64,000 bases of DNA, from contig JAJYYG010000007.1 of NCBI GenBank assembly GCA_021801235.1, positions 36,715-100,714 on the forward strand, read 5' to 3'. Shown here piece by piece: positions 23,775-46,585 of the stretch (positions within the stretch are counted from its first letter, which is position 1; every line of letters starts with the position of its first letter). The notes below the pieces were generated by a model. It did not search any database and had not been told where the DNA came from. It saw only the letters and a list, made by a program, of their open reading frames with translations. Position numbers and translations under genes: made by a program. Source of the DNA: Actinomycetes bacterium (GTDB lineage: Bacteria > Actinomycetota > Acidimicrobiia > Acidimicrobiales > RAAP-2).

Positions 23775-25180
23775 GCCGGTCCGGGGACGCGAAGGCCGAG
23801 GTGATGTGGTTCCGCCGGGACCTGCGCGTCGCCGACCACCCGGCGCTGGCGGCCGCAGTGGCCGGGGCGGCGGACCTCGGCCGGCCGGTGGTCCCCCTGT
23901 TCGTGGCGGACGACCGGATCCTGGCCGGGGCGGGTGCCAACCGGAGGGCCTTCCTGGCCGGGAGCCTCGCCGAGCTCGACCGGTCCCTGGAGGGATCCCT
24001 GGTCCTCCGCCGGGGCCGCCCGGAGGAGGTGGTCCCGGCCTTCGCCGCGGAGGTGGGCGCCACCACCGTCTTCGCCACCGGCGACTGCACCCCCTACGGC
24101 CGCCGTCGCGACGCGCGGGTGCGGTCCCCGTTGGAGGCGGCAGGTCGCGGCCTGGCGCTCGTCGGCTCCCCGTACGCCGTCTCCCCCGGAAGGGTGGTCG
24201 GGCGGTCGGGCGCGCCGTACCAGGTGTTCACCGCGTTCGCCCGGGCCTGGGCCGCGCACGGATGGCCGCCGCCCGTCCCGGCCGCGACGGTCGGGCGGTG
24301 GACCACCCGCCCGTCGGACTCCACCCCCGCGGAGGTGGTGTCCGGACTGCCGGGCCCGAGGACCGGACTCGTGTCCCCGCACCTCCCCGAGCCCGGGGAG
24401 GGGGCCGCCCGACGCGCCCTGGAGCGGTTCGTGGGCGGTCCGCTCGCCGCCTACGGCGCCCAGCGGGACCAGCCTGCCGTCGAGGGAACCTCCCGACTGT
24501 CGCCCTACCTCCGCTTCGGATCCCTCCATCCCCGCCAGGTCCTCGACCTCCTCCCCGACACCCCCGGCACCGCCACCTTCCGGTCCGAGCTGGCCTGGCG
24601 GGAGTTCTACGCCGACGTCCTCTGGCACCACCCGCGGTCCGCCTGGGAGTCGCTGAACGCGACGGGAGCGATGCTCCGGTGGGACGAAGGCCCTGAAGCC
24701 GACGAGCGGTTCCGGCGGTGGACCGAGGGGACGACCGGGTTCCCGTTGGTGGACGCGGGGATGCGGCAGCTCGCCTCGGAGGGATGGATGCACAACCGGG
24801 TGCGGATGGTCGCCGCCTCGTTCCTGGTCAAGGACCTGCATCTCGACTGGCGGCGCGGTGCCCGCTGGTTCCTCGACCGGCTGGTCGACGGGGACGTGGC
24901 CTCCAACAACCACGGTTGGCAGTGGGTCGCCGGTACCGGGACCGACGCGGCACCCTTCCACCGGATCTTCAACCCCACCGTCCAGCGCGAGCGCTTCGAT
25001 CCGGACGGGGCCTACGTGGGCCGGTACGTGCCGGAGGCCGGGTCGTCCGCCTACCCGGACCCCATGGTCGACCACGGGGCCGAGCGCCTGGAGGCGCTGT
25101 CCCGCTGGACCGACGCCAAGTTGGCGGCCGGGGAAGCCGGCCTGGGCCCGGCAGTGCCCCCCCGGCCGGGGTGCCGGTGA
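23771..25180 (+). CDS. phr: Deoxyribodipyrimidine photolyase (class I CPD photolyase family)
   Basis: A 469-residue light-driven DNA repair flavoprotein. The amino-terminal Rossmann domain opens with VMWFRRDLRVADHPAL. The FAD-binding domain has LSPYLRFGSLHPRQV, ELAWREFYADVL and the strongly conserved NNHGWQWVAGTGTDAAP. The GTG start overlaps the recO stop, so it is made with a recombination protein and not from a dedicated light promoter. A cryptochrome role cannot be excluded. The presence of a photolyase fits with the light-sensing cluster at 37.8 kb. Confidence 0.92.
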   Translation: MSRSGDAKAEVMWFRRDLRVADHPALAAAVAGAADLGRPVVPLFVADDRILAGAGANRRAFLAGSLAELDRSLEGSLVLRRGRPEEVVPAFAAEVGATTVFATGDCTPYGRRRDARVRSPLEAAGRGLALVGSPYAVSPGRVVGRSGAPYQVFTAFARAWAAHGWPPPVPAATVGRWTTRPSDSTPAEVVSGLPGPRTGLVSPHLPEPGEGAARRALERFVGGPLAAYGAQRDQPAVEGTSRLSPYLRFGSLHPRQVLDLLPDTPGTATFRSELAWREFYADVLWHHPRSAWESLNATGAMLRWDEGPEADERFRRWTEGTTGFPLVDAGMRQLASEGWMHNRVRMVAASFLVKDLHLDWRRGARWFLDRLVDGDVASNNHGWQWVAGTGTDAAPFHRIFNPTVQRERFDPDGAYVGRYVPEAGSSAYPDPMVDHGAERLEALSRWTDAKLAAGEAGLGPAVPPRPGCR

Positions 25181-37829: not shown

Positions 37830-37847
37830 TAGGCTTAGTGCTAAATG
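37830..37847 (+). promoter_or_regulatory. Promoter and candidate operator of the B12-binding regulator
   Basis: TAGGCT (37830-37835) is a -10 box nine bases before the ATG at 37845. Overlapping it is TTAGTGCTAAATG (37835-37847), an imperfect inverted repeat TTAG-N2-CTAA covering the expected start of transcription and the start codon. The same 13-mer with two changes lies between the divergent lipid genes at 42270-42282. Autorepression is inferred. Confidence 0.5.
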
Positions 37848-38786
37848 CTTGACAACCACGAAGCAGACGGCGTGCCCGACGCCACCCTCACGCTCGCCGA
37901 AGCGGCCGACGTGCTCGGGGTCCACTACATGACCGCCTACCGCTACGTCCGCACCGGGCGCCTCGAGGCGTCGAAGGTGGGCGGGGAGTGGCGGGTGCCC
38001 ACCGAGGCGGTGGACCGGTTGGTACCGGGTCCGTCCCCGGAGCGGCACGCCCTCGCGGGTCCGGGGCCCGCCACCGGGTCGGGGCCTGTTGCCGGGCGGA
38101 CGGGTCAGGCCCGGGCGCGGTACCGGGTGCGTCTCGAGGACCGCATGGTCGCCGGGGACGAGGCGGGGGCCTGGGCGGTGGTGGAGGCGGCCCAGGCCGG
38201 CGGGGCCGACCCCGCCGACCTCTATCTCGACCTGCTCATCCCGGCGCTGCGCTCGCTCGGGGACCGGTGGGAGGCGGGCGCGCTCTCCATCGCCGACGAG
38301 CACCGGGCCTCGGTGGTCGCCCTCCGGCTGATCGGCCGGCTGGGGCCGCGCTTCGCACGACGCGGGCGCAAGCGCGGGACGGTCGTGATCGGTGCCCCTG
38401 CGGGGGAGCGCCACGCCATCCCGGTGGCCGTCGTGGCGGACCTGCTCCGCCAGGTGGGCTTCGAGGTCGTCGATCTCGGTCCGGACACCCCGCCGGCATC
38501 CTTCGTCGAGGCGGTGGCGCTCGCCTCGGCCACCGGGCGCCTGGTGGCCGTGCTCATCGGCGTCACCGTGCCCGCCGGCCTCGAGGCGGCGCGGACGACC
38601 GTCGGGGCGCTGGCCGCATGGTCCGAAGGCTCGGGCGACCCGGTCCCCGTCCTGGTCGGAGGGGCGGCTGTCCGCGACGCGACCGCGGCCGCCGGGTTCG
38701 GGGCCAGTGCCTACACCGGGGTCACCGGGGCGGATGCGGTCGCCGCCGTCGAGCGTCTGGTGGAGCTCACGCGCTCCGGGTCGTGA
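37845..38786 (+). CDS. B12-binding transcriptional regulator with CarH-type light-sensor signature and excisionase-type HTH
   Basis: A 313-residue two-part regulator. Residues 15-60 form an excisionase/HTH_17 helix-turn-helix (LTLAEAADVLGVHYMTAYRY) in place of the MerR domain of CarH/LitR. After a Gly/Pro linker, residues about 95-165 match the B12-binding cap and contain W142-x9-E152-H153, the Wx9EH motif that packs against adenosylcobalamin in CarH photoreceptors. The Rossmann-like B12 domain has E188-R-H190 as the probable lower ligand, then a strand, helix and VVDLGPDTP. It should release DNA in light (inference from CarH). It converges with the Cfa operon and probably controls it. Confidence 0.8.
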   Translation: MLDNHEADGVPDATLTLAEAADVLGVHYMTAYRYVRTGRLEASKVGGEWRVPTEAVDRLVPGPSPERHALAGPGPATGSGPVAGRTGQARARYRVRLEDRMVAGDEAGAWAVVEAAQAGGADPADLYLDLLIPALRSLGDRWEAGALSIADEHRASVVALRLIGRLGPRFARRGRKRGTVVIGAPAGERHAIPVAVVADLLRQVGFEVVDLGPDTPPASFVEAVALASATGRLVAVLIGVTVPAGLEAARTTVGALAAWSEGSGDPVPVLVGGAAVRDATAAAGFGASAYTGVTGADAVAAVERLVELTRSGS

Positions 38787-39984
38787 GAGGCGGCCGCCAG
38801 CCCGGCATCGCCATCACCATCTGCACGTCGCTGATGTGGCGGGCGAGGAACGCGCCCTCGCAGTAGGCCAGATAGAGGTCCCAGGTGCGCAGGAAGGCCT
38901 CGTCGAGCCCGAGCCCGGCGATCTGGTCCCGGTGGGCGGTCACGTTGCGCCGCCACCGCCGGAGGGTCTCGGCGTAGTGCCGCCCGATGTCCTCGAGGTC
39001 GACCACGACCAGGGGCGTCGACCGCCGCAGGGACCGGGTGATCGACGCCACCGACGGGATGCACCCCCCGGGGAAGATCAGCTCGGTGACGAAGTCGGAG
39101 GTGTTCTTCGCCCGCTCGTAGCTCCGGTCGTCGATGGTGATCGCCTGGAGTGCCATCAGGCCTCCCGGTCGGAGCAGGCCCGCGCACGTGGCGAAGAACC
39201 GGTCGTGGAGCCGCCAATCGACGGCCTCGATCATCTCCACGGAGACCAGCTTGTCGTACGTGCCCGTGAGGTCCCGGTAGTCGTCGGCGAGGACGGTCAC
39301 CCGGTCGGCGAGCCCGGCCTCGGCCACGCGCTTGGAGGCGAGCTGGAACTGGGCGTCGGAGATGGTGGTCGTCGTGACCCGGCACCCGTAGCGGGTGGCG
39401 GCGTGGATCGCCAGACCACCCCAGCCGCTGCCGATCTCGACCAGGTGGTCGTCCGGTCCGAGGTGGAGCTTGGTGCAGAGCCGGTCGAGCTTCGCCCGTT
39501 GGGCGTCGGCCAGGCTCATCCCGGGCCGCTCGAACACCGCGGCCGAGTAGAGCATCGTCTCGTCGAGCATGAGGGCGAAGAACTCGTTGGAGAGGTCGTA
39601 GTGCGCCCGGATGTTGCGCCGATCGGTGGGCGCATCCGGAGGGTGCAGGCGGCGCCACCAGTCGCCCGCCTTCGCTGAGGCCAGGCCGACGCGATCCTGG
39701 AGGGCGGTGACCGGCTCGAGAGCGGTGGTGAGCAGCGTGACGAGCCCGGGCAGGTCGTCGCAGTCCCACCCCCCGGTGGCGTACGTCTCGGCGAACCCGA
39801 TCGACCCGTGCCGGAGCAGTGCCAGGTACACGGCGCGGTCGTGGACGGTCACCGCCACCTCGGGCGTCCCGCTGCCCAACCGGTAGGTGCCTCGGTCGTC
39901 GGTCAGCACGAGCGTGCCTCCCCGCATGCGGCGTCCCAGCGATCTGACGAGCCTGGCGGACGGTCCGGCGAGCTGTGGCGTCAT
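38767..39984 (-). CDS. Cyclopropane-fatty-acid synthase-like (Cfa/UfaM) methyltransferase
   Basis: A 405-residue SAM-dependent methyltransferase acting on acyl chains of membrane phospholipids. The core has RNIRAHYDLSNEFFALMLDE and LVEIGSGWGGLAIHAATRYG (SAM site), followed by SVEMIEAVDWRLHDRFF and FVTELIFPGGCIPSV, as in Cfa. The upstream region (residues 1-100) corresponds to the extra domain of Cfa. The ATG at 39984 overlaps the DUF1365 stop by four bases; the track start is an artefact. It is last in the operon FAD enzyme-DUF1365-Cfa. The 3' end overlaps the convergent regulator by 20 bases. The product may be cyclopropane, methyl-branched or furan-precursor acids. Confidence 0.88.
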   Translation of the reverse strand: MTPQLAGPSARLVRSLGRRMRGGTLVLTDDRGTYRLGSGTPEVAVTVHDRAVYLALLRHGSIGFAETYATGGWDCDDLPGLVTLLTTALEPVTALQDRVGLASAKAGDWWRRLHPPDAPTDRRNIRAHYDLSNEFFALMLDETMLYSAAVFERPGMSLADAQRAKLDRLCTKLHLGPDDHLVEIGSGWGGLAIHAATRYGCRVTTTTISDAQFQLASKRVAEAGLADRVTVLADDYRDLTGTYDKLVSVEMIEAVDWRLHDRFFATCAGLLRPGGLMALQAITIDDRSYERAKNTSDFVTELIFPGGCIPSVASITRSLRRSTPLVVVDLEDIGRHYAETLRRWRRNVTAHRDQIAGLGLDEAFLRTWDLYLAYCEGAFLARHISDVQMVMAMPGWRPPLTTRSA

Positions 39985-40808
39985 CGGTGCCCCCTCTTCC
40001 CGTCCCCTCTCTTGTCCGGATGACGGTAGAAGGGCGCGCCCTTGATGCGCAGGTTCAGGGCCTGACGATAGATGCCGAACGAGACCCGTGCCGTCATCAG
40101 CGGGAACCGCCAGAGCACCCGCCCCAGCTCCCGGCGGGTGGCGGGCACTCTCGTGAGGTGCATCGACGCTGCGAAGACGACCCGTCCGTCTTCGAGATCG
40201 TCGGTGCCGAGCACCAGCTCCGTGCCCGGCTCGCCGACGACGAACCGGTGGGTGAGCTCCATCGGGAGGAAGGGCGAGACGTGCATCGCCTTGTCCACCA
40301 GGTGGGTCCCGGTCCCCGGGAGGACGTAGGCGGTCCGCTGGTGCCACGGGGTGTTGGAGACTTCGATCACCACCGTCTCCACCGAGGTGCCGTCCTCGCC
40401 GAGGCAGTAGTAGGTGCTGATCGGGTTGAACAGCCACCCCCAGGTCCTCACGTGGGTGAGGAGGGTGACCGGGCCGGTCGGGCGCCGGCCGGTGCGCTCC
40501 TCGACCAGGTCGCGCACGGCGGTGTCGATCGGCACGGACGGGTCCCCGAGGTAGTCCCGCCGCCGGAAGGAGACCGCGTTGGCGCGCTCGACCGACCAGA
40601 GGGGGTGGCGCCGGCAGAGGGCGTCCACCTCGGAGAGGTCGAGGTAGGTCATGGTGATCCGGTAGCGGAACCGGTGGTCCACCGGCTCGAACCGATGGTG
40701 GGTCACCGTGCCCTCGTAGAGGGCGGACCGCAGCTCGGTGTCCGGGCCGACCGGTCGGGCGACCGGCGGGACCCGCGCCGTCGTCTCGGGAGGCGGCAGC
40801 AGGCTCAC
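39981..40808 (-). CDS. DUF1365 protein of the Cfa operon
   Basis: A 275-residue protein of the DUF1365 family, which nearly always lies between an FAD amine-oxidase-like gene and a cfa-like gene. Family blocks are ALYEGTVTHHRFEPVDHRFRYR, the RRDYLGDPSVPI region, and VRTWGWLFNPISTYYCLGEDG. Biochemistry is not settled; a role in fatty-acid modification is inferred from context. The GTG start at 40808 overlaps the FAD gene stop, and its own stop overlaps the cfa start, so the three are strictly coupled. Confidence 0.88.
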   Translation of the reverse strand: MSLLPPPETTARVPPVARPVGPDTELRSALYEGTVTHHRFEPVDHRFRYRITMTYLDLSEVDALCRRHPLWSVERANAVSFRRRDYLGDPSVPIDTAVRDLVEERTGRRPTGPVTLLTHVRTWGWLFNPISTYYCLGEDGTSVETVVIEVSNTPWHQRTAYVLPGTGTHLVDKAMHVSPFLPMELTHRFVVGEPGTELVLGTDDLEDGRVVFAASMHLTRVPATRRELGRVLWRFPLMTARVSFGIYRQALNLRIKGAPFYRHPDKRGDGKRGHR

Positions 40809-42055
40809 AGGGTCTCCCCCGCAAGCCGGGCGCACACCCGCAGCGCGCTCTGCACCCCGTCCTCGTGGAAGCCGTACCCCCAGTACGCGCCGCAGAACCA
40901 GGTCCGGCGCTCCCCGTTCAGCTCCTCGTGACGCCGCTGGGCGGCGATGGCGGGGGGGTCGAAGACCGGATGGGCGTAGTCGAACCCGGCGATCACGCGG
41001 TCCTCCCGGATCGCGTCGTCGCGGTTCAGCGTGACCAGCAGCTCGTGGCGGCTGGCGATGCCCTGGAGGCTGCGCAGGCGGTAGGTGAGGGTGGCGAGGC
41101 TCGGCTGGTCGACCAGGCGATGGTAGTTCCAGCTCGCCCAGGCCCGCGGGTTGCGGGGCAGGAGCCGCTCGTCGGTGTGCAGGGTGGCGCGGTTCGGCTG
41201 GTAGCGGATGGCCCCCAGCACCTCGCGCTCGAGGCGGGACGGGTCGGACAGGAGCGACAGCGCCTGGTCGCTGTGGGCCGCCACCACCACGTGGTCGAAG
41301 CGCTCGGGCCCCATCGGCGACAGGAGCTCGACCCCACCGTCGTGCCGGGTGATCTTCTCGACCGGTGACGAGAGGCGGACCCGGTCGCCGAGCGGGGCGA
41401 GGACGGCCTCGACGTAGCGCCGCGAGCCACCGCTCACCGTCCGCCACGACGGCTGGTCCCCGTAGGTGAGGAGGCCGTGGTTGTCGAAGAACCGGGCGAA
41501 GGTCACCGCCGGCATGTCCATGAAGGTGGTCGGGTCGGCGGACCAGATGGAGGAGCCCATCGGGATCAGGTACCACTCGACGAACGGTTCCGACCAGCGT
41601 CCCTGGCGCAGGAGGTCGCGCAACGAGAGGGAGAGGTCCTCCTCCGGGTCGGTGAGCAGCTGCCGGGCCTTGCGGTTGAAGCGCACCACGTCGACCAGCA
41701 TCCGGAGGAAGTCCGGCCGGGCAGCGTTGCGCCGTTGGGCGAACAGGGTGGAGAGCGAGGTCCCCTTCCACTCGATGCCGGTGCCGTCGTCCGAGACGCT
41801 GAAGCTCATGTCGCTGGCCTTGGTCTCCACGCCGAGCTCCGAGAACAGCCGGACCAGTCCGGGATAGTTCCGCTCGTTGTAGACGAGGAAGCCGGTGTCG
41901 ACCTCGTGCGTCTCGTCGGGGAGGTCGACCCGCACCGTGTGGGCGTGGCCGCCGGGCCTCCGGTCGGCTTCGAACACGGTGACCTGGTGCCGCCGGCCCA
42001 GCAGGTGTGCGCAGGTCAGCCCGGCCACACCGGTTCCTACAATGGCGATCCGCAT
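40805..42055 (-). CDS. FAD/NAD(P)-binding amine-oxidase-like protein (fatty-acid desaturase/oxidase type)
   Basis: A 416-residue flavoprotein. The amino end MRIAIVGTGVAGLTCAHLLG and VTVFEADRRPGGHAHTV bind FAD, DTGFLVYNERNYPGLVRL is characteristic of the subfamily found with DUF1365 and cfa, and the carboxy end has TWFCGAYWGYGFHEDGVQSALR. In Rhodobacter relatives of this trio are under the singlet-oxygen response and have been linked to modified (furan) fatty acids; transfer of that role here is inference. I start at the ATG 42055. It leads its operon and its upstream region holds a CCCGT microsatellite and a palindrome shared with the B12 regulator promoter. Confidence 0.86.
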   Translation of the reverse strand: MRIAIVGTGVAGLTCAHLLGRRHQVTVFEADRRPGGHAHTVRVDLPDETHEVDTGFLVYNERNYPGLVRLFSELGVETKASDMSFSVSDDGTGIEWKGTSLSTLFAQRRNAARPDFLRMLVDVVRFNRKARQLLTDPEEDLSLSLRDLLRQGRWSEPFVEWYLIPMGSSIWSADPTTFMDMPAVTFARFFDNHGLLTYGDQPSWRTVSGGSRRYVEAVLAPLGDRVRLSSPVEKITRHDGGVELLSPMGPERFDHVVVAAHSDQALSLLSDPSRLEREVLGAIRYQPNRATLHTDERLLPRNPRAWASWNYHRLVDQPSLATLTYRLRSLQGIASRHELLVTLNRDDAIREDRVIAGFDYAHPVFDPPAIAAQRRHEELNGERRTWFCGAYWGYGFHEDGVQSALRVCARLAGETL

Positions 42056-42110
42056 CTGAGTGGTCGGCTCCTTCGCTGCATCGTGTCGTCGGTCATGCAC
42101 TGCGTCTCGT

Positions 42111-42135
42111 CCCGTCCCGTCCCGTCCCGTCCCGT
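42111..42135 (-). repeat. CCCGT microsatellite, five perfect units
   Basis: Five CCCGT units plus one CTCGT lie 56-80 bases upstream of the FAD gene ATG, between that start and the operator-like palindrome. Copy-number changes could alter leader length or promoter spacing (inference). Confidence 0.85.
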
Positions 42136-42266
42136 CACGCCGGCGGCGGGTCCGCGGCGTCCCGGTCATCAGGCCCGGCTCCTCCCGTGTGCTTCGGATC
42201 CGACCCCGGGAGCGGATGCCCCCACGGCGCCGAACGTTCCCGATCGGTTGCCGTCGTCGGCCGGTA

Positions 42267-42282
42267 TATTTACTACTAAATG
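42267..42282. promoter_or_regulatory. Candidate operator in the divergent FAD/SRPBCC intergenic region
   Basis: The palindrome ATTTA-CTAC-TAAAT lies in an AT-rich island within GC-rich DNA. TTACTACTAAATG (42270-42282) matches the regulator promoter element TTAGTGCTAAATG at 11 of 13 positions. It sits between two divergent units (minus: FAD-DUF1365-cfa; plus: SRPBCC-SDR), so one protein could control both. Confidence 0.5.
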
Positions 42283-42325
42283 TAGCCGGACCGTCCGCCG
42301 GACGATCCGCCGAGGAGGCCCGACC

Positions 42326-42808
42326 ATGGCGCGTTACCGGGGAACCGTGTCCACGACCCGAAGCATCGAGGACGTCTTCGACTACCTGGCCGAGTTCTCC
42401 AACGCCGCGGAGTGGGACCCCGGTGTGACCGGAGCCGAGCGGCTCGACGCCGGACCCGTCCGCCTGGGGAGCGTCTTCCGCCTCCACGTGCGGACGGGGG
42501 TCCGCACGTCGCCGTTCGACTACCGCATCGTGGAGTACCGGCGGCCGGAGCGGGTCGTACTGCTCGGCACCCACGGGTCGATGCGCTCGGAGGACACGAT
42601 CACCTTCGAGCCGGCCACATCGGGCGGCACGACGCTCACCTACGACGCCGACTTCCGCTTCACCGGCGTGGCCTCGTTGGCGAACCCCCTCCTCGCCGTC
42701 CCCTTCCGGCGGATCGCCGACCGGGGCCTCGCCGGGCTCCATCGCGCCCTGACCGATGCGGGCGGGGCGCCCGGAGCGGAGGCGGACGCCGGAGAGGCGG
42801 CGCCGTGA
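42326..42808 (+). CDS. SRPBCC-family (polyketide cyclase/START-like) protein
   Basis: A 160-residue hydrophobic-ligand-binding protein. The fold is recognised from MARYRGTVSTTRSIEDVFDYLAEFSNAAEWDPG at the start, the strand pattern in the middle, and ANPLLAVPFRRIADRGLAGLHRAL as carboxy-terminal helix. The ATG follows a strong GAGGAGG ribosome site. It is the first gene of a unit divergent from the FAD-DUF1365-cfa operon and overlaps the SDR start by four bases, so it probably binds or transfers a lipid intermediate (inference). Confidence 0.8.
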   Translation: MARYRGTVSTTRSIEDVFDYLAEFSNAAEWDPGVTGAERLDAGPVRLGSVFRLHVRTGVRTSPFDYRIVEYRRPERVVLLGTHGSMRSEDTITFEPATSGGTTLTYDADFRFTGVASLANPLLAVPFRRIADRGLAGLHRALTDAGGAPGAEADAGEAAP

Positions 42809-43824
42809 GCGGGACGGCACCCGCCCGCCTGGTCGACGAGGTGCTCGAGGCGACGGTGGTCGGGAGCTTCTCGAGGATCGGCCCGATGGTCCGCAGCCGG
42901 ACCGCCCGGTGGGATCCGCCGGAGCGCCTCGACGGGCGCACGGTGCTCGTGACCGGTGCCACGTCGGGCATCGGGTTGGCCGCTGCGGTCGGTTTGGCCC
43001 GGGCCGGGGCGACGGTGCGCTTCACGGCCCGGGGCCGGGAACGGGCCGACCGGGCGGTATCCCACGTCGTCGAGGCGGCGCCCGGAGCGGATGTCGACTA
43101 CCTGCTCGCCGACCTCAGCGACCTCGACCAGGTGCGCCGGCTGGCCGAGTCGTTCACCGCCGGACACGACCGCCTCGACGTGCTGGTGCACAACGCCGGG
43201 GCGCTGACCCGTTCCTACCGGACGGCCCCCGACGGGTCCGAGGTGACCGTCGCCACCCAACTGCTGGCGCCCTTCCTCCTCACCGGGCTGCTGTTGCCCG
43301 CCCTCGAGGCGGCGGGGTCCGCCCGGGTCCTGCAGGTCTCCTCCGGGGGCATGTACACCCAGCGGTTCGACCTCGACGCGCTCGAGATGCCCCCAGACGC
43401 CTACGACGGGACGGTCGCCTACGCCCGGGTCAAGCGCGCCCAGCTGGTGCTGCTCCACGAGTGGGCCCGGCGGCTGGTGGGACGGGGCGTGACGGTCAAC
43501 GCCATGCACCCGGGGTGGGCCGACACCCCGGGCATCCGGTCCGGGCTCCCGGGGTTCTCGCGGGTGATGGGGCCGCTGCTCCGGTCCGAGGAGGAGGGTG
43601 CGGACACCCTGGTCTGGCTGGCGTCGTCGCCGGAGGGCGCGTCGACCACCGGACGCTTCTGGCTGGACCGCAGGCCCCGCTGGGAGCACAAGGTCCCGTG
43701 GACCCGGCTCGACCATGGGAGCTTCGTGGCCGCGGGCTCGGCACTGTGGGCCTGGTGTGCCGAACGGACGGGCTGGGACGGTCTCCGTCCGGCGGGCCGG
43801 GAGGCGGCTACTCCCAGCCGGTGA
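42805..43824 (+). CDS. Short-chain dehydrogenase/reductase
   Basis: A 339-residue SDR. The cofactor motif is LVTGATSGIGLAAAVGLARAG, the structural NAG is in LVHNAGALTRS, the catalytic Ser is in VLQVSSGGMYT and the active-site Tyr/Lys pair is in YARVKRAQ. The carboxy-terminal extension includes LVWLASSPEGASTTGRFWLDR. SDRs of this type occur in the light-stress lipid clusters with cfa and DUF1365. The GTG start overlaps the SRPBCC stop. Its 3' end overlaps the convergent lipocalin-like gene by 17 bases. Confidence 0.86.
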   Translation: MSGTAPARLVDEVLEATVVGSFSRIGPMVRSRTARWDPPERLDGRTVLVTGATSGIGLAAAVGLARAGATVRFTARGRERADRAVSHVVEAAPGADVDYLLADLSDLDQVRRLAESFTAGHDRLDVLVHNAGALTRSYRTAPDGSEVTVATQLLAPFLLTGLLLPALEAAGSARVLQVSSGGMYTQRFDLDALEMPPDAYDGTVAYARVKRAQLVLLHEWARRLVGRGVTVNAMHPGWADTPGIRSGLPGFSRVMGPLLRSEEEGADTLVWLASSPEGASTTGRFWLDRRPRWEHKVPWTRLDHGSFVAAGSALWAWCAERTGWDGLRPAGREAATPSR

Positions 43825-44920
43825 ACCCGTACTGCTGGTGGGGTCCCATGACGGCGCACTCGAACATCCCGTAGCCGACCTCGCCGTCGCAGGTGAACCG
43901 GGCCGCGTACTCGGTCAACCCCCAGTTCATGTAGCCGGCATCCACCGGGGGGATGGTCTGCCCCTCGACCACCAGGTCTCCCTGGTACATGCCATGCCTC
44001 CACTCCGGTTCGAGCCCGTAGCCGGTGCCGAGCAGGAGCGGGAACGCCAGGAGGGTCTCCACCTCGACCTCGGCCGCCCTCTTCCCGTGGGGTCCGAAGT
44101 ACGACAGGGTGGCGCCGACGACCCTCCGGGTCCCCGGCTCGAAGCGGAGCTCGTGCTCGGGCCGGCCCAGCCACTCCGGGGCGCGGCCGGCACCGACCGG
44201 GAAGGCCCGGTGCGCGTCCTGGAGGATCCGCTCGCCGTCGGGCCGCTCCTGGACGATGGTGACGAGGGCGTGGTCGGCGAAGCGGACCGGCGCGTAGATC
44301 CAGAAGAACCCCGCCCCGGTGTCGGTCGCCCTGATCCCGGGTGGCTCCGGCTCGCCCACCGGGCGGATCCCCCACGACCGGTCCCGGGTCCCCCACCAGC
44401 GGTCGGGGGTCAGGTGCTGCTCGCGGTCACCGACCCTGAGGGTGCCGGACCACGATCCGACCTGGGCGAACCGCGTGGAGTCGAAGGTGACCCGGCTGAA
44501 CTGACGGTCGAAATGACGGGACTCGAGCAGCGCTTCGGAGAACCCGTCGTAGACCGCGTCGAGCTCGATCCCGTGCTCGTTCGGCTCGACCACCACCCGC
44601 ACCCGGCGCAACCCCTCCTGCACCTCGACCCGGATGGGCCCCACCGAGGCGTCCATCCGGTCAGCACCGAGCGTCCGGGACGACCGCACCACCCGATGGT
44701 CGTCGCCCCACAGCACCGACACGAACGCGTCCGCCACCGACAGGTTGGGATACTGACCCACCCCGACCACCGCGAACAGCTCGTCGTCGGTACCGTGGAC
44801 GCCGGCGGCCCCGTGGATGTTGAAGTAGTACCGGTCGTAGAAGTTCCGGTCCGAGGTGCCCACGTGGCGCATCGGCTCGGAGATCTGGTGGACCGGGTAG
44901 TCGTCGAGCGGTGAGAGCAC
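43808..44920 (-). CDS. Lipocalin-like (CrtC/AttH-related) protein
   Basis: A 370-residue protein without a signal peptide. Two beta-rich halves are seen. The first half includes FYDRYYFNIHGAAGVHGTDDELFAVVGVGQYPNLSVADAFVS, and the centre has the diagnostic DRWWGTRDRSWGIRPVG, which resembles AttH/hydroxyneurosporene synthase-type double lipocalins. The GTG start at 44920 is the only candidate near the ORF end. Convergent overlap with the SDR suggests proximity rather than co-regulation. A lipid- or terpenoid-binding role fits the neighbourhood (inference). Confidence 0.65.
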   Translation of the reverse strand: MLSPLDDYPVHQISEPMRHVGTSDRNFYDRYYFNIHGAAGVHGTDDELFAVVGVGQYPNLSVADAFVSVLWGDDHRVVRSSRTLGADRMDASVGPIRVEVQEGLRRVRVVVEPNEHGIELDAVYDGFSEALLESRHFDRQFSRVTFDSTRFAQVGSWSGTLRVGDREQHLTPDRWWGTRDRSWGIRPVGEPEPPGIRATDTGAGFFWIYAPVRFADHALVTIVQERPDGERILQDAHRAFPVGAGRAPEWLGRPEHELRFEPGTRRVVGATLSYFGPHGKRAAEVEVETLLAFPLLLGTGYGLEPEWRHGMYQGDLVVEGQTIPPVDAGYMNWGLTEYAARFTCDGEVGYGMFECAVMGPHQQYGFTGWE

Positions 44921-45127: not shown

Positions 45128-46585
45128 ATGCACGCGTACGAGCGACTGTTCATCGGGGGGGAGTGGGTCGGACCGTCCTCCGACGCCACGTTCGACGTGC
45201 ACTCGCCCACCAGCGGGGAGCTGGTCGGGCGGGTCCCCGAGGCCCGGGAGGCGGACGTGGACCGCGCGGTGGCGGCGGCCCGGCAGGCGTTCGAGGGAGG
45301 GCCGTGGCCCCGCATGACGCCTACCGAGCGTGCCGTCGTCCTGACCAAGGCGGCGGAGGCGATCCGCAATGACATGCAGGGCATGTCCGAGCTGATCTCC
45401 AACGAGATGGGCTCGCCCGTGTCGTGGGGGTCTCTGGCCCAGGTGTTCGCTCCCACGATGATCCTCGACTACTACGCCGGGCTGGGTTCGACGTTCGCCT
45501 TCGACACCGTGAAGGTCGGACTGCTCGGCCCGGTGATGGTCACCAAGGAGCCGGTCGGGGTGGTGGCGGCGATCACCCCGTGGAACGTGCCGCTCTTCCT
45601 GGCCGCGGCCAAGCTCTCCCCGGCGCTGCTCGCCGGCTGCACCGTGGTCTTCAAGCCGGCCCCCGAGACGCCGCTCGACGCCAACCGCCTGGCCGAGATC
45701 CTCGCCGATGCCGGCCTCCCGGCCGGGGTGCTGAGCGTCGTTCCCGCCGGGCGCGAGGTGGGGGATCACCTGGTGAACCACCCGGGCGTCGACAAGGTGT
45801 CGTTCACCGGGTCCACCGCGGCCGGCAGGAAGATCGGAGCCGCGTGCGGCGCCAACCTGAAGCGCTGCAGCCTCGAGCTCGGGGGGAAGTCGGCGGCCAT
45901 CCTGCTCGACGACGTGGACCTCGAGACCAGCCTGCCGCTGTTGATGCCGAACGCCATCATGAACAACGGCGAGGCGTGCATCTCGCTGACCCGCATCCTC
46001 GCCCCGCGGGACCGCTACGCGGAGGTGACCGACGCCCTGGTCGAACAGGTCAGGGCGCTCAAGGTGGGGGACGCGCTCGATCCGGCGACCGAGGTGGGCC
46101 CGTTGGTGGCCGAGCGCCAGCGCGAGCGGGTCGAGGGCTACATCCGGATCGGCCAGGAAGAGGGGGCCAAGGTGGCGATCGGCGGTGGGCGGCCCGCCGG
46201 CCTCGACTCGGGCTGGTTCGTCGAGCCCACCGTGTTCGTCGACGTCGACAACGGCATGCGCATCGCCCGGGAGGAGATCTTCGGTCCGGTGCTCTCCGTG
46301 ATCCCCTACGACGGCGAGGAGGACGCGGTGCGGATCGCCAACGACTCCGACTACGGCCTGTGCGGGGCGGTCTTCACCGCCGACAACGACCGCGGGGTCA
46401 AGGTCGCCCGCCAGGTGCGGACCGGCACCTACATGGTCAACTCCAACATCCCCATCGACTTCTCCTCGCCGTTCGGCGGCTACAAGGCGTCGGGGGTCGG
46501 GCGTGAGTTCGGCGAGGACGGCCTCGAGCTGTTCCTCGAGAAGAAGACGATCAACCTCCCCGCCGGGTACTCGCCGGACGTCTGA
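45128..46585 (+). CDS. NAD(P)-dependent aldehyde dehydrogenase
   Basis: A 485-residue aldehyde dehydrogenase oxidising an aldehyde to the acid. Signatures are VAAITPWNVPLFLAAAK, the Glu motif LELGGKSAAILL and the catalytic Cys in MNNGEACISLTRI. The tail has NSNIPIDFSSPFGGYKASGVG. It starts at an ATG behind GAGGGAGGGG. The promoter carries a perfect palindrome, so expression is probably inducible by a repressor ligand. The group to which it belongs is often involved in alkane, terpene or sterol side-chain oxidation; the substrate is unknown. Confidence 0.9.
   Translation: MHAYERLFIGGEWVGPSSDATFDVHSPTSGELVGRVPEAREADVDRAVAAARQAFEGGPWPRMTPTERAVVLTKAAEAIRNDMQGMSELISNEMGSPVSWGSLAQVFAPTMILDYYAGLGSTFAFDTVKVGLLGPVMVTKEPVGVVAAITPWNVPLFLAAAKLSPALLAGCTVVFKPAPETPLDANRLAEILADAGLPAGVLSVVPAGREVGDHLVNHPGVDKVSFTGSTAAGRKIGAACGANLKRCSLELGGKSAAILLDDVDLETSLPLLMPNAIMNNGEACISLTRILAPRDRYAEVTDALVEQVRALKVGDALDPATEVGPLVAERQRERVEGYIRIGQEEGAKVAIGGGRPAGLDSGWFVEPTVFVDVDNGMRIAREEIFGPVLSVIPYDGEEDAVRIANDSDYGLCGAVFTADNDRGVKVARQVRTGTYMVNSNIPIDFSSPFGGYKASGVGREFGEDGLELFLEKKTINLPAGYSPDV

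Follow-up and report, generated by a model that had tools for sequence, protein, structure and literature searches.

A putative light-released B12 repressor with an excisionase-type DNA-binding head and a predicted palindromic operator beside ufa-like lipid genes of an actinobacterium

Introduction

CarH and class I LitR, described from Thermus, Myxococcus, Bacillus and Streptomyces, are autonomous regulators that join a MerR DNA-binding head to a four-helix plus Rossmann sensor of the adenosylcobalamin (AdoCbl) type, and that act at operators overlapping the start of the controlled gene. The sensor carries a Trp, a Glu-His pair and a lower axial His. In the dark, CarH sits as an AdoCbl tetramer on an operator that overlaps the promoter, and light releases it; the operator is made of 11-bp direct repeats, nAnnTnnACAn (PMC8156234). 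The targets are crt genes.

The nearest known system to the one described here is the LitR cluster of Pseudomonas, in which a class II LitR (PplR/PmlR1) adjoins phrB, a short-chain dehydrogenase/reductase (SDR) gene, an FAD oxidoreductase gene, hypothetical genes and ufaM (PMC9758184). In this LitR-linked phrB-SDR-FAD-ufaM arrangement, light induced ufaM 25-33-fold (PMC9758184). Class II LitR is proteobacterial, has a MerR head and a TGTACA-N12-GGTATA-like operator, keeps only the four-helix half of the sensor, is thought not to bind B12, and works with LOV proteins.

Two further lines of work bear on our locus. Four motifs (GxxW, EH, GxxH and GxxxP) define light-responsive cobalamin-binding domains (CBDs), examples of which were validated experimentally, and a database scan had picked up B12 domains fused to helix-turn-helix (HTH) outputs (PMC11796333). 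The SignatureFinder study thus mentions HTH-fused CBDs as an output type, but its main text holds no characterised HTH_17-CBD protein, operator or regulon. On the lipid side, UfaD, UfaO and UfaM, the products of RPA2571-2569, suffice for methyl-furan fatty acids; UfaO contains DUF1365, and UfaD and UfaO jointly turn the UfaM product into the furan acid (PMC7380195). This pathway is known in Rhodobacter and Rhodopseudomonas, and in Rhodobacter loss of the anti-sigma factor ChrR raises the level of its products (a singlet-oxygen response).

An initial annotation of the locus had proposed a light-switched membrane protection system of a kind not commonly described. That claim must be narrowed, because a strongly light-induced MerR-type LitR/ufaM cluster is known in Pseudomonas (PMC9758184) and HTH-B12 fusions have been noticed (PMC11796333). 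What stands is that, in our search of open papers, no HTH_17-B12 regulator turned up for which an operator or regulon had been defined.

Results

The locus occupies about 6 kb of the window, by which we mean the whole 64,000-nucleotide stretch of DNA that was analysed. Its genes are as follows.

37845-38786, plus strand: regulator of 313 aa, with HTH_17, B12-binding_2 (four-helix) and B12-binding (Rossmann) domains (ORF call, Pfam, NCBIfam)
38767-39984, minus strand: CMAS-family SAM-dependent fatty-acyl methyltransferase, UfaM-like (Pfam; Cfa Cys139 replaced by Ala, His266 by Gln)
39981-40808, minus strand: DUF1365 protein, UfaO-like, a predicted furan-forming monooxygenase, GTG start (Pfam, E 1.7e-71; PMC7380195)
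40805-42055, minus strand: FAD/NAD-binding amino-oxidase-like protein, UfaD-like, a predicted methyl-fatty-acyl desaturase (Pfam; PMC7380195)
42326-42808, plus strand: SRPBCC / Polyketide_cyc2 protein (Pfam, E 3.6e-20)
42805-43824, plus strand: SDR, GTG start (Pfam)

Pfam placed HTH_17 at residues 15-59 of the regulator (E 2.2e-12), B12-binding_2 at 96-163 (4e-14) and B12-binding at 179-282 (3.5e-8), and NCBIfam recognised the head as 'excise' (5.6e-12), that is, excisionase-type. Neither Pfam nor NCBIfam gave a MerR match in the regulator, and the NCBIfam CarH equivalog reached 53.5 bits, against a cut-off of 400, over the B12 part only. Because both the MerR head and the CarH equivalog score fall away, the regulator is not a member of CarH/LitR, yet it appears to work like one. 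The annotated fusion of a non-MerR, HTH_17-type head to a B12 domain was therefore confirmed, with the open reading frame at exactly the annotated position. Reading the B12 domain as the corrinoid protein of an enzyme was ruled out by matches far under the curated cut-offs, by the HTH head and by the signature residues.

These residues are W142-x9-E152-H153 and G187-E188-R189-H190, exactly as the annotation had claimed for the first group and for E188-R-H190. The GxxW and GxxxP elements used by SignatureFinder were present as well (G139, G212, P216), so that the regulator contains all four motifs: G139DRW142, E152H153, G187ERH190 and G212PDTP216. It shares them with the SignatureFinder proteins CtMerR, SasPcob and AbDPcob, which are also its best structural matches. 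Loss of Wx9EH across orthologues, which the annotation had named as grounds for rejection, was looked for, and the outcome did not reject it: W142, E152, H153, H190, G139, G212 and P216 were invariant in 11 diverse homologues, and of 92 homologues 80 retained the W/E/H/H core and 67 had all four motifs.

An AlphaFold model of the regulator (mean pLDDT 86.8) indicated a CarH-like fold, with a four-helix bundle and a Rossmann domain. Its best matches in the PDB were light-sensing photocobilins (rmsd 1.8-2.2 over ~214 columns), the CtMerR CBD and full-length TtCarH, the top entries being 8j2w (photocobilin, rmsd 1.8), 8jbs (CtMerR domain) and 5c8d/5c8e. The Trp is followed by Glu143, at the position of TtCarH His132. 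In TtCarH that histidine forms the bis-His light state, although it is also missing from CtMerR and SasPcob, both validated as light-responsive; the details of the light-state chemistry may therefore differ here. A cobalamin adenosyltransferase is encoded in the genome. We infer that the regulator binds AdoCbl and senses light.

Two groups of relatives depart from this pattern. A paralogue subgroup with HYTTAYRW heads (L094, L095 and L096, in genomes G095, G291 and G229) has lost the Trp and the Glu-His pair and kept the lower His; judged by these residues, its members are possibly light-blind. A planctomycete HTH_17-B12 protein (L015, 707-1633) heads a co-directional FAD-DUF1365-CMAS cluster, and because its lower-axial His is replaced (GDPY), it may ligate cobalamin in a different way.

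The neighbours named in the initial annotation, FAD enzyme-DUF1365-CMAS with a divergent SRPBCC-SDR pair, were all recovered by domain matches where it had placed them. The within-operon junctions on each strand overlap by 4 bp, with the DUF1365 GTG start overlapping the FAD gene stop and the SDR GTG start overlapping the SRPBCC stop; thus, FAD-DUF1365-CMAS and SRPBCC-SDR each have the appearance of a tight operon. The convergent regulator and CMAS genes overlap by 20 bp. Beyond the SDR gene lies a gene for an Rv3169-family protein (43808-44920, minus strand; NCBIfam NF053593, 417 bits), and this gene and an aldehyde dehydrogenase gene (45128-46585) are both conserved in the closest relative (L004).

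In domain content and order, FAD-DUF1365-CMAS equals ufaD-ufaO-ufaM, the order of RPA2571-2569, and on these grounds we predict a furan product. We also considered an ordinary envelope-lipid operon whose products are cyclopropane or 10-methyl (tuberculostearate-type) acyl chains. CMAS is a broad family that includes cyclopropane and mycolic acid synthases, and the SigK operon of mycobacteria includes a comparable set of genes, FAD-DUF1365-UfaA1, which is not known to have a light role. Two features speak for furans instead. The DUF1365 and FAD genes adjoin in the ufaD-ufaO-ufaM order, and the CMAS protein has Ala and Gln at E. coli Cfa Cys139 and His266, which we take to be bicarbonate ligands, so that a UfaM-like methyltransferase seems a better fit than a cyclopropane synthase. 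The non-furan reading is possible and, in our view, doubtful; it is a question of the product alone and does not conflict with light control.

A search of homologue upstream regions revealed a 12-bp palindrome, TTTAGYRCTAAA, upstream of many family members' own genes and at the ufa promoter. The window contains two predicted operators of this type.

37834..37845, unstranded: predicted operator O1, CTTAGTGCTAAA, 1 mismatch to TTTAGNNCTAAA; its final A doubles as the first base of the regulator ATG
42269..42280, unstranded: predicted operator O2, TTTACTACTAAA, 1 mismatch; between the divergent FAD and SRPBCC genes, 46 bp ahead of the SRPBCC ATG

Both lie one mismatch off the palindrome, where chance alone would give 0.42 sites at <=2 mismatches in the window. 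The closest relative holds a site identical to O1 in the same place (3146) and a conserved variant of O2 (7585). The 2.79-Mb genome has only three sites with <=1 mismatch: two at the regulator/ufa cluster and a third (L128) that precedes a peroxiredoxin start by 70 bp. In the region upstream of the regulator, the exact palindrome was found 11 times (0.27 expected) and one-mismatch versions 16 times (0.53 expected). Sites with <=1 mismatch occurred at the FAD promoter in 8/13 and at the SRPBCC promoter in 9/12 actinobacterial loci, versus 3.5% of random windows of the same loci, and none lay upstream of the internal DUF1365 and CMAS genes in linked loci.

A scan of 37.6-42.6 kb found no consensus sigma-70 promoter; thus, repression over activation is suggested by the positions of the sites at gene starts. 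In homologous loci, only four of 94 operator instances came with a strict TTGACA/TANNNT promoter at the site, against a background of 0.075%, a pattern that suggests promoter-operator overlap in these loci. A DNA photolyase gene lies in the window ~13 kb upstream of the regulator (~23800-25180, plus strand). It was rejected as a regulon member on finding no palindrome with <=2 mismatches there.

The palindrome co-varies with the regulator. With one AT-rich genus excluded, 38 of 48 genomes bearing the exact palindrome had the regulator, versus 68 of 254 overall (Fisher P 1e-17). A site was found upstream of 33/75 members with Tyr34 in the recognition helix and of 0/15 with Trp34 (P 7e-4). Genomes count as independent in both tests although they are not entirely so, and the P values thus set an upper limit on the evidence. 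The palindrome was also missing at seven related proteins from other parts of the phylum, whose heads are of the WVRRGDLPAFKxGGRLRV type.

We weighed these data against binding by another factor, such as a WhiB partner or an ECF-linked regulator, with the B12 regulator a mere neighbour. Such a factor might explain why, for about half of the family, the 420 bp upstream of the member's own gene carry no palindrome, and why ten palindrome-bearing genomes lack the regulator. It accounts poorly for a palindrome that tracks both regulator presence and the recognition helix, or for its strong enrichment just where the regulator gene has its own upstream region. We regard another factor as very unlikely; the B12 regulator presumably binds the palindrome directly.

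A family profile (E < 1e-75) found full-length members in 68 of the 296 genomes of the window's class, and more distant ones elsewhere in the phylum. DUF1365 occurs in 53/296 genomes, one copy each. Where both genes were present (28 genomes), they lay <=10 kb apart in ten, against 0.19 expected (P ~2e-15); in the remaining 18 they were not linked on assembled contigs, and contig ends separate them in G289, G158 and G293. Next to family members, the ufa genes turn up repeatedly but in varying order and orientation, and at least 10 changes of the linkage label are forced on the tree. The association therefore recurs or persists through rearrangement and is not one inherited block. Such recurrent linkage, which the annotation had proposed to survey, strengthens the connection it drew between regulator and cluster, as does the operator-like palindrome shared at 37.83 and 42.27 kb, the very places that the annotation had singled out for gel shifts.

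Other recurrent neighbours of the family were photolyase (9 loci), ECF sigma (12), accompanied by RskA-type anti-sigma (6), and fasciclin (7) genes. ImuA/ImuB, biotin and ABC-F neighbours of some homologues were left out of the evidence as possible lineage effects. At thirteen loci, nearly all of genome family f2 (L047, L048, L053, L056, L066, L068, L069, L074, L079, L083, L087, L089, L122), the regulator lies directly upstream of an ImuB-type polymerase gene and/or a companion ORF, often with NUDIX and DnaE2. These loci have no TTTAGYRCTAAA upstream of the regulator; they are possibly a light-linked translesion mutasome.

Sites also precede WhiB-like, fasciclin, ECF-sigma and photolyase genes in relatives, in addition to the peroxiredoxin gene of the window's own genome. 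Distal sites in other genomes preceded WhiB-like genes at 12 loci and fasciclin genes at 4 loci. The exact palindrome stands before WhiB-like genes in several genome families (L129, L131-L134, L136-L138, L141-L144), and some of these genes are divergent from a fused tetrapyrrole methylase/HemD gene. At L117, L123 and L124 the regulator adjoins an ECF sigma gene carrying one or two palindromes, with an RskA-type anti-sigma in L117 and L123; a light-to-sigma-factor cascade is possible at these loci.

The set of predicted targets bears on what the regulator senses. A B12 domain alone does not prove light sensing, and the CBD could bind AdoCbl as a plain sensor of B12 supply (nutritional or metabolic state), tuning lipid modification to B12 or redox status. 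The f4 genomes, in which the palindrome lies between the WhiB-like gene and the fused tetrapyrrole methylase/HemD gene, offer a tetrapyrrole connection in its favour. Against it, the upper-face W/E/H residues that separate photoreceptor CBDs from enzymes are conserved, the genes that lie beside the family or are its predicted targets are those for photolyase, fasciclin, peroxiredoxin, ECF sigma and ufa functions, not those of B12 metabolism, and comparable Pseudomonas clusters are light-induced. We judge a B12-supply sensor improbable; dark repression with release of the regulator from DNA by light appears the likeliest mode of action.

Discussion

We consider it quite probable that the regulator is an AdoCbl-loaded, light-released repressor, with an excisionase-type HTH, of the ufa-like furan-lipid cluster and of at least a peroxiredoxin. 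The product of the 37.8-kb gene would be a repressor of the CarH/LitR functional kind in which the excisionase-type HTH replaces MerR. In the dark, the holo-protein would oligomerise and bind the 12-bp palindrome; the copy over its own start would give autorepression, and the copy in the divergent promoter would hold down both FAD-DUF1365-CMAS and SRPBCC-SDR. Light would break the Co-C bond, and the loosened oligomer would leave the DNA. The cluster would then be made together with at least a peroxiredoxin, as a derepressed regulon of photo-oxidative membrane defence. The FAD enzyme, DUF1365 protein and methyltransferase would act as UfaD, UfaO and UfaM to methylate, desaturate and oxidise membrane acyl chains, yielding methyl-furan (or related branched) fatty acids that may trap singlet oxygen and radicals; the SRPBCC and SDR proteins would be accessory lipid-handling proteins.

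The regulator shares with CarH and class I LitR the sensor architecture, its Trp, Glu-His and lower axial His, and the autonomous mode with an operator at the start of a controlled gene. It differs in having HTH_17 for MerR, Glu for His132, and ufa (predicted) for crt targets. The predicted operator, a palindrome and not direct repeats, suggests that protein and DNA meet in another geometry, which fits the change of head. Control also differs from the UfaD-UfaO-UfaM pathway of Rhodobacter: there the products respond to loss of ChrR, and here the genes lie under a predicted B12 repressor.

What is new here is a large actinobacterial regulator family, with a palindrome common to many of its members. 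With less assurance than for the locus itself, we lean towards a broader view: that much of the window's class uses B12 photoreceptor-repressors of a family not described before, which has an excisionase-type head and a palindromic operator of its own. It would command a photo-oxidative stress regulon of photolyase, peroxiredoxin, furan lipids, WhiB redox factors, fasciclin lipoproteins and ECF sigma/anti-sigma, with an ImuA-ImuB-DnaE2 mutasome adjacent in one genome family.

With a precise predicted operator and a short list of targets, the proposal lends itself to immediate testing. If the proposal is true, it would provide a compact new green-light DNA-binding module for optogenetics, and it would give the furan fatty acids of bacteria, whose function is still a matter of debate, a dedicated light switch in a second phylum. 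The light-sensing B12 module would have been joined in evolution to a second kind of DNA-binding head, and non-phototrophic, largely uncultured actinobacteria of soil and water would sense light via B12 with a separate DNA-binding architecture.
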